In this document: positions 45,276 through 47,114 of the stretch, one piece after another
Layout of the letters: each line of letters starts with the position of its first letter
Numbering within the stretch: the stretch's first letter is position 1
Assembly: GCA_903925205.1 (NCBI GenBank)
Contig: CAIYEN010000010.1
Span: forward strand, 1-56,817
Source: an uncultured Opitutia bacterium
GTDB taxonomy: Bacteria > Verrucomicrobiota > Verrucomicrobiia > Opitutales > UBA953
Reading direction: 5' to 3'
DNA length: 56,817 nucleotides
The notes under the pieces: model-generated
The model's input: the letters and a program-made list of their open reading frames with translations, nothing else
Told to the model about the DNA's origin: nothing
The model's database searches: none
Made by a program: the position numbers and the translations under genes

Positions 45276-46832
45276 TTAAGACAAGGCGTAGGCGTAGCCG
45301 TCGACGATGGCCCGCAACGAGGCTTCCACGAGGTTGGCGCTCACGCCGACGGTGCCCCACGAGCGCGTCCCGTCCGTGGAACGGACGACCACGCGGGTCT
45401 GCGCCGACGTACCATCCTGACCAGCCAACACGCGGACCTTGTAATCCGCGAGGTGCACCTTCTTTAACTTCGGGAAAGCTTTCACGAGCGCCTCGCGGAG
45501 GGCTTGGTCCAACGCGTGTACCGGGCCTTCGCCTTCGGCCACAGTCAGCGATTCCTTACCGTCGATGCGCACGCGCACGGTGGCTTCGCAACTGGCGTCC
45601 TTCAGGCCACCCTGCACGGAAATATGGTACTTCACGACTTCGAAAGGTACGACCGCCGACTTGCCCATGTGACTACGGAGCAACAAGGCGAGCGACGCAT
45701 CGGCGTCCTCGAAACTCCAACCTTTGTGCTCGAGCTTCTTGAGCTCATCCAGCGCAACGCGCGTCGAGGGCGCATCCTTATCGAGGGTGATCCCGAGTTC
45801 AGCCGCCTTCAGGAGTAGGTTACTACGGCCCGACTGGTCGCTCACGAGGACATCCCGCGCGTTGCCGACAGCGGATGGGTCAACGTGCTCGTAGGCGGCG
45901 GAGAACTTGCGGATGGCGTCGACGTGCGTACCGCCCTTGTGGGCGAAAGCCGCGGCGCCGACCCACGGACGACGGGGATCGGGGGCTTGGTTGGTGACGC
46001 CATCGACGAAACGGGAAAGGGCGGTAAGACGCTTGAGCGAAGCCGCCGGGACGCAGCTCCAGCCGCGCTTAATCTGCGCAACCGGGATGACGGCCGTGAG
46101 GTCGCAATTGCCCGTGCGTTCGCCGATGCCGTTCATCGTGCCCTGCACGTGGACCGCGCCCGCGTCCAACGAGGCCAAGGCATTGGCTAAGGCCAAGCCC
46201 GAGTCGTCATGGGTGTGGATGCCGATGGCGGCCTTGACGGCGGCGCGGGCATGGCGGGTAGCTTCGGCCACTTCGTCCGGCAGTGAACCACCATTGGTAT
46301 CACAAAGGACAATGCGGGAGGCACCCGCTTCAGCCGCAGCACGGAAACAAGCCGCGGCGTAGGCAGGATCTTCCTTCCAGCCGTCGATTGCATGTTCGCA
46401 ATCATAGACGACCTCGCGGCCGTGGGACTTCAAGAAGGCCACGGTGTCGGCAATCATCGCCAGGTTTTCTTCGGGCGTGCAGCGCAGGACTTCACGGACG
46501 TGGAGGGCGGAGGTCTTACCGTAAATGGTGACGACGGGGGTCTCGACCTCGAGCAGGCCCTTGACCTGCGCATCTTCGGAGGCACGAATCCCCTTCTTGC
46601 GGGTGGAGCCGAACGCCGCGAGCTTGGCGTGCTTGAACTTCAACTTACGGGCTTCGTGGAAGAATTCGATATCGCGCGGGTTGGAGCCTGGCCAGCCGCC
46701 CTCGATATAGGTCACCCCAAAACGCTCGAGCTCTTGAGCCACGCGCAGCTTGTCAGCGACCGAGAAATGAATCCCCAGGCCCTGCGAGCCGTCGCGAAGG
46801 GTGGTGTCATAAATTTCGATTTTTCGTGCCAT
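45276..46832 (-). CDS. cimA: Citramalate synthase
   Basis: 518 residues from the ATG at 46830-46832 (MARKIEIYDTTLRDGSQGLG). The DRE-TIM barrel metallolyase core shows IYDTTLRDGSQ, YIEGGWPGSNPRDIEFF, CDTNGGSLPDE and GIHTHDDSGLALANAL; a LeuA-type dimer domain with SVQGGLKDASCEATVRVRIDG ends the protein. The GGWPG-NP and HTHDDSGLA forms belong to the CimA group (Geobacter/Leptospira type), which condenses pyruvate and acetyl-CoA to (R)-citramalate, the first step of the threonine-independent route to isoleucine. An isoleucine-rich leader peptide directly upstream confirms this pathway and not leucine synthesis. Confidence 0.95.
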   Translation of the reverse strand: MARKIEIYDTTLRDGSQGLGIHFSVADKLRVAQELERFGVTYIEGGWPGSNPRDIEFFHEARKLKFKHAKLAAFGSTRKKGIRASEDAQVKGLLEVETPVVTIYGKTSALHVREVLRCTPEENLAMIADTVAFLKSHGREVVYDCEHAIDGWKEDPAYAAACFRAAAEAGASRIVLCDTNGGSLPDEVAEATRHARAAVKAAIGIHTHDDSGLALANALASLDAGAVHVQGTMNGIGERTGNCDLTAVIPVAQIKRGWSCVPAASLKRLTALSRFVDGVTNQAPDPRRPWVGAAAFAHKGGTHVDAIRKFSAAYEHVDPSAVGNARDVLVSDQSGRSNLLLKAAELGITLDKDAPSTRVALDELKKLEHKGWSFEDADASLALLLRSHMGKSAVVPFEVVKYHISVQGGLKDASCEATVRVRIDGKESLTVAEGEGPVHALDQALREALVKAFPKLKKVHLADYKVRVLAGQDGTSAQTRVVVRSTDGTRSWGTVGVSANLVEASLRAIVDGYAYALS

Positions 46833-46934
46833 GGTGGTGGGGGTGGTGGGAAGGGGTGTAAGGGAAGTCTCCGTTCCGGGAGCCGCGGAACGGGAAGTCG
46901 CCGATGGCGAGCCGTTCAGCGGGCTTAGCGCCCG
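46833..46934 (-). promoter_or_regulatory. Attenuator region of cimA
   Basis: Between the leader peptide and cimA the minus-strand RNA can form three hairpins: CGGGC/GCCCG around the leader stop (46920-46934), TCGCC/GGCGA (46898-46910), and an 8-bp stem CCGTTCCG/CGGAACGG (46871-46893). No U run follows the last hairpin. Instead, about 36 bases almost free of G and rich in C (46833-46868) lead to the cimA ATG, as expected for a Rho entry site or an open initiation region. Confidence 0.65.
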
Positions 46935-47008
46935 ATGATGATAATCGCAGGAATAATGGCACGACCGCCCACGGGGGGAAGGGTCTGAGACTGTGCCGTG
47001 AATTCCAT
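46925..47008 (-). CDS. Isoleucine-rich leader peptide of cimA
   Basis: A 27-codon frame opens with the ATG at 47006-47008 (MEFTAQSQTL) and ends at a TAA at 46925-46927. Codons 17-27 read AIIPAIIIIGR: six Ile codons (ATT, ATT, then ATT, ATC, ATC, ATC) in eight positions, just before the stop and 92 bases before the gene for an isoleucine-pathway enzyme. Leader peptides rich in the end-product amino acid sense charged tRNA: scarce Ile-tRNA stalls the ribosome on these codons and changes the folding or Rho access of the RNA beyond. The frame is distinct from that of cimA. Confidence 0.85.
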   Translation of the reverse strand: MEFTAQSQTLPPVGGRAIIPAIIIIGR

Positions 47009-47114
47009 GGGAGAACCCCAAGTCCAAGGAAATCCCCGTGTTGAGTCAAAGGCAAAGGCGGGAAGGCACAGACTCGGCTCGCCAAAACCCCTATTTTAAG
47101 GAGAAAATCGGCCC

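Follow-up and report, generated by a model that had tools for sequence, protein, structure and literature searches.

The window analysed here, 56,817 nucleotides of contig CAIYEN010000010.1, comes from an uncultured Opitutia bacterium of the Opitutales, UBA953 (genus g1 of family f1 below). Its minus strand carries cimA (45276..46832), which encodes a citramalate synthase of 518 aa scoring 649.6 bits with TIGR00977, where 450 bits is the cut-off for a CimA equivalog call. On the same strand, a leader peptide ORF of 27 codons (46925..47008) runs from an ATG at 47008 to a TAA at 46925, 92 nt before the cimA ATG at 46832. Its translation, MEFTAQSQTLPPVGGRAIIPAIIIIGR, ends in GRAIIPAIIIIGR and has six isoleucine codons within an IIPAIIII stretch; an SD is absent. 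The initial annotation had described a 27-codon minus-strand frame ending AIIPAIIIIGR, with six isoleucines and 92 nt from cimA, and re-reading proved it correct. In every relative with sufficient upstream sequence, a TTTGACTC box lies ∼33-47 nt 5' of the leader ATG. Upstream sequence comparison gives a putative -35 element, TTGACT (47044..47049, minus strand), and the sequence suggests a weak putative -10 element, TGGACT (47021..47026, minus strand), after a 17 nt spacer. With this placement, transcription probably begins ∼10 nt upstream of the leader ATG.

Around and beyond the leader stop, the RNA of this strand offers four segments that can pair as 1:2 (P1), 2:3 (P2) and 3:4 (P3). P1 (46920..46934), CGGGC-GCTAA-GCCCG, carries the leader stop within its loop, and 99.5% of its alignment cells are paired; one pair is altered from CG to GC on both sides in two sequences, giving CGGGG/CCCCG in L046 and L048. 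P2 (46883..46922), the putative on hairpin, joins CCGC-U-GAACGG to CCGUUC-C-GCGG through nearly invariant arms (CCGCUGAACGG with CCGUUCCGCGG), with 99.0% of cells paired in its extended form, and it holds an inner stem, CGCC-AUC-GGCG (46899..46909), in which three of the four pairs show two-sided changes. P3 (46871..46893), the putative off hairpin, pairs CCGUUCCG with CGGAACGG in 95.3% of cells. P2 and P3 are mutually exclusive, as both use positions 46893-46883, the almost invariant CCGUUCCGCGG. The initial annotation had recognised a first hairpin with the stop in its loop and two more stems after it, but had missed that these two are mutually exclusive.

Conservation of the leader and its link to isoleucine synthesis

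Among 84,980 species genomes scanned, 80 CimA relatives were found. The Ile-rich frame is present in all Opitutae relatives whose CimA is 78-100% identical and whose upstream sequence is long enough, except for a sister genus (L019, L020, L043) whose cimA upstream region is short and leaderless; such recurrence is far beyond chance. The 27-codon frame is kept in 45 genomes of the window's genus, which is every one with the cimA 5' end assembled. In an alignment of 42 sequences, 45 of the 46 indels inside the frame are multiples of three, whereas those 3' of the leader stop measure 1, 2, 3, 4, 5, 7 nt and more, and the ratio of synonymous to nonsynonymous single-base codon differences is 0.76 against an expected 0.40. 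Together these patterns indicate that the leader frame is very probably translated. Isoleucine occupies leader positions -6, -4 and -3 in 39 of the 42 sequences; in a few relatives the run is thin (three Ile in L010). The alignment of related cimA upstream regions proposed in the initial annotation thus does contain Ile codon runs in a conserved frame. Among these close relatives, a cimA lacking the Ile frame occurs in the sister genus only, and frameshifts are nearly absent. What precedes cimA is a short ORF with a codon run for the pathway product, its translation being read from frame conservation. The reading of this ORF as a chance occurrence within a conserved promoter region, for which its shortness and missing SD might speak, has a negligible probability given the frame conserved over the 42 aligned sequences and the distinct Ile-rich leaders that precede cimA in family f21 (below).

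We searched 55 genomes of the genus and 388 of the phylum with a covariance model of the element, R1. It was found directly 5' of cimA in 45 of the 55, once per genome (69.8-99.3 bits); in the other 10 the cimA 5' end or the whole gene is missing from the assembly. Elsewhere there were only chance-level matches, one extra in G062 (E 0.026) and two in the 388 phylum genomes (E 0.02-0.03), and on these searches the element is confined to the window's genus.

The regulatory domain of IlvA, PF00585, was the sole marker by which we judged biosynthetic threonine deaminase, and it was found in none of the 55 genus genomes. The single g3 genome and the eight g4 genomes, all without cimA, do carry it, and every one of the nine g2 genomes has cimA, PF00585 or both. 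Across family f1, cimA and this domain are nearly complementary by genus, g1 and g5 having cimA only, g3 and g4 IlvA only, and g2 being mixed. Since PF00585 is missing from all 55 genomes, cimA is very probably the entry step to isoleucine in the window's genus. The citramalate route is thus represented by a CimA equivalog (649.6 bits) with the PF00585 deaminase absent, in agreement with the earlier suggestion that isoleucine is the pathway product.

Ile-rich ORFs also precede cimA in other Opitutales (L139, L165, L166, L171, L178, L180-L183, L187-L189). In family f21 a separate Ile-rich ORF was found in 10 of 16 genomes (p ≤ 0.05 each against shuffles), and likewise in L171 (f23) and L139 (f4); when families f20, f21 and f23 are pooled, isoleucine is the most enriched of all twenty residues (z 10.5). 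Model R1 matched none of the other Opitutales cimA leaders in the sampled genomes, suggesting that the leader either diverged beyond recognition or arose more than once. The f21 leader (L165, L166, L168, L178, L180, L181, L183, L187, L188, L189) ends IIS or RIS before the stop, has ATTAGCTGAGGGG at the stop and a GC-rich hairpin after it; L182 has lost the stop of this motif. A further element, CGAATT-NNN-stop, is found before cimA in families f2, f20 and f23 (L133, L135, L162, L164, L171, L190, L191, L196, L200, L203-L208). It codes for R-I-(S/R/L)-stop, Ile codons are otherwise few, and a hairpin comes directly after it; L198 and L202 keep most of its bases and have lost the stop. In L053, filed as Sumerlaeaceae, an ORF ending RIIIIGPPRVR (2281-2391) precedes a cimA whose product has 52% CimA identity.

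The four-segment switch and the proposed role of the leader ribosome

When P1, the P2 core and the inner stem are taken together, 97.8% of cells hold standard pairs and four pairs have changed two-sidedly, a level reached by none of 500 shuffles; in the alignment, then, there is covariation in the 1:2 stem and in the inner stem of 2:3. P3 has no two-sided compensatory pair and does no better than shuffles, and the outer P2 pairs barely vary and are likewise free of two-sided compensation, so that P3 and outer P2 are supported by conservation rather than covariation. Segment 3, the 5' arm of P3, hardly varies, as would follow from its pairing in both states. Most changes in the 3' arm of P3 preserve pairing (A to G opposite U), and L009, L010 and L051 retain P3 through a 3' arm, CGGAAC or CGGGAC, shifted a few nucleotides further on.

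The distance from the leader stop to the 5' arm of P2 is 6-7 nt in all sequences (in the window, GAACGG begins 7 nt past the stop), and a ribosome at the stop would therefore cover that arm, whereas stalling on the Ile run would be expected to leave it uncovered. The median energy is -28.2 kcal/mol for P1, the inner stem and P3 together and -23.6 kcal/mol for extended P2. As P1 alone contributes -8.2 kcal/mol, blocking it would reverse the preference (about -20 against -23.6), and occlusion of P1 alone would flip the switch. P2 and P3 exclude each other, and their placement would let the predicted footprint of the ribosome determine which of them forms.

We consider it likely that this element upstream of cimA acts as a ribosome-mediated attenuator responding to the charging of tRNA-Ile. 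Ribosomes would translate the Ile-rich leader and, when isoleucine is plentiful, reach the stop and occupy the 5' arm of P2, allowing P3 to form and turning cimA off. When isoleucine is scarce, they would stall on the Ile run and cover the 5' arm of P1, leaving segment 2 free to form extended P2, which would exclude P3 and turn cimA on. The frame, the codons, the conserved alternative pairings and the linkage to cimA are observed here, and from them we infer the ribosome positions and the on/off assignment; P3 is the presumed off hairpin by the logic of trp and ilv attenuators.

Candidate outputs and rival explanations

The region between the last stem and the start codon (46833..46870, minus strand) is C-rich, G-poor and SD-less. 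The initial annotation had pointed to such a tract in place of a U run, and indeed there is 1 G in the 38 nt beyond the last stem; over 43 sequences the tract measures 21-49 nt and contains 2.7% G. It is most likely the translation start region of cimA. In the window's genome, similar tracts lie upstream of the starts of leuA and ilvB, and by eye no Ile leader was seen before either gene. Among 341 genes from three genus genomes and the window, 32 (∼9%) have an SD-like motif 5' of the start, G drops to ∼19% near the C-rich starts, and in 21 no more than one G occurs within 30 nt, so by its composition the cimA tract resembles an extreme version of the SD-less starts usual here.

A Rho-dependent output, in which untranslated C-rich RNA recruits Rho once the leader ribosomes have gone, has this tract in its favour, and a comparable mechanism has been proposed for the cys leaders of mycobacteria (PMC1262725). 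Yet Rho, as judged by TIGR00767, was found in none of the 55 genomes of genus g1 (G000, G025-G078) and none of the six of genus g5 (G019-G024), compared with all 18 other family members, mostly in two copies, and 202 of the 223 sampled genomes of the order. Within the order this looks like a lineage-specific loss of Rho in g1 and g5. We also rejected the tract as a rut site because similar tracts precede other genes, leuA and ilvB among them. The Rho effector suggested initially therefore has to be given up unless an unrelated factor does the job, and we regard this output as very improbable, since a Rho analogue unrelated to TIGR00767 would be required.

The initial claim that there is no classical terminator holds. 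After P3 there are on average 1.4 U per 8 nt, close to the 1.6 after hairpins inside genes and well below the 3.2 at gene ends of the genus, where the gaps between convergent genes mostly have a U-rich hairpin. No U tract directly follows the 3:4 stem, and we rejected P3 as a canonical terminator since its tail is as U-poor as those of intragenic hairpins.

With neither Rho nor a U tract at hand, the same isoleucine sensing could have a translational output, in which UCGUGCCAU (46957-46965, leader codons G-R-A-I) pairs with AUGGCACGA at the cimA start unless held by a stalled ribosome. In the window the two are perfectly complementary over 9 nt (46957-46965 with 46824-46832), and RNAalifold pairs nearby columns, in a different register. 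However, this long-range helix is 82.5% paired with no covariation and shuffles do equally well, and it is complete only in close relatives, having at least two mismatches in most of L009, L010, L012-L017, L046 and L048, though P1-P3 persist there; we rejected it for want of covariation. A stalled ribosome also fails to lower the opening energy of the -20..+15 region (median 6.1 vs 4.8 kcal/mol), on which ground masking of the cimA start by P3 was rejected as well. Set against an ermC-type translational attenuator, P3 stops 21-49 nt short of the ATG, the opening energy is unchanged and the long-range helix lacks covariation. Control through access to the cimA start, the other output initially proposed, thus finds no support in folding energies or covariation, and we judge the translational version unlikely, though it is to be taken seriously. 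A ligand- or protein-binding riboswitch or a T-box with an incidental peptide would fit the strong nucleotide conservation around P1-P3, but there is no Rfam match near threshold or above chance, T-box included, and the indels in threes, the conserved Ile codons and the stop at a fixed distance from P2 make such a reading improbable.

For the attenuator that we favour, a transcription stop at or just beyond P3, using neither Rho nor a U run, appears slightly more likely than translational control. The variable distance from P3 to the cimA ATG and the rigid spacing from the leader to P2 suit RNA polymerase better than start-codon masking and lean slightly this way. Against the attenuator counts that, with no U tract after P3 and no Rho, no known route of termination is visible; so do the missing two-sided compensation in P3, the scant variation of the outer P2 pairs and the thin Ile run of a few relatives.

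Relation to known leaders

Leaders of the enterobacterial trp and ilvGMEDA type are ribosome-mediated transcription attenuators. The present element shares with them the end-product codons, a stop beside the 1:2 stem, the alternative 2:3 and 3:4 pairings and a stable 3:4 stem as putative off hairpin, and differs in preceding cimA, in a 3:4 stem without a U tract, in its SD-less and very short leader start, and in its Rho-less genus within the Verrucomicrobiota. Actinobacterial ilvB leaders and the Corynebacterium ilvB-II motif, compared by description, also combine a uORF rich in branched-chain codons with alternative stems before a branched-chain pathway gene, there ilvB and here cimA, but in these a U run follows the terminator hairpin (PMC1262725, PMC10272879), and that run is missing here. 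Mycobacterial cys leaders, which have no obvious terminators (PMC1262725), are similar in their regulatory codon run near the stop and the lack of a canonical terminator; mycobacteria, however, have Rho and these leaders no conserved hairpins, the reverse of the situation here. Closest in setting are the other Opitutales leaders, with a short Ile-rich ORF ∼50-150 nt before cimA and, in f21, a GC-rich hairpin at the stop; unlike the present leader, they end IIS, RIS or RIR before the stop, are not matched by R1 and belong to families that have Rho.

Neither cimA nor the Verrucomicrobia are mentioned in a broad terminator-based survey (PMC2965389). Our literature search, of incomplete coverage, found no published cimA leader. 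Most documented cases of leader-peptide control come from Proteobacteria, Actinobacteria and Firmicutes. The present leader would extend it, apparently well conserved, to the Verrucomicrobiota and to cimA, where an isoleucine leader in turn supports isoleucine as the product of the pathway. The element has the layout of a textbook switch, yet neither of the two usual means of halting RNA polymerase is at hand, the genus having lost Rho. It is possible, and we put it forward tentatively, that a full four-segment switch whose off hairpin acts with neither U tract nor Rho represents a new type of expression platform in a Rho-less lineage.
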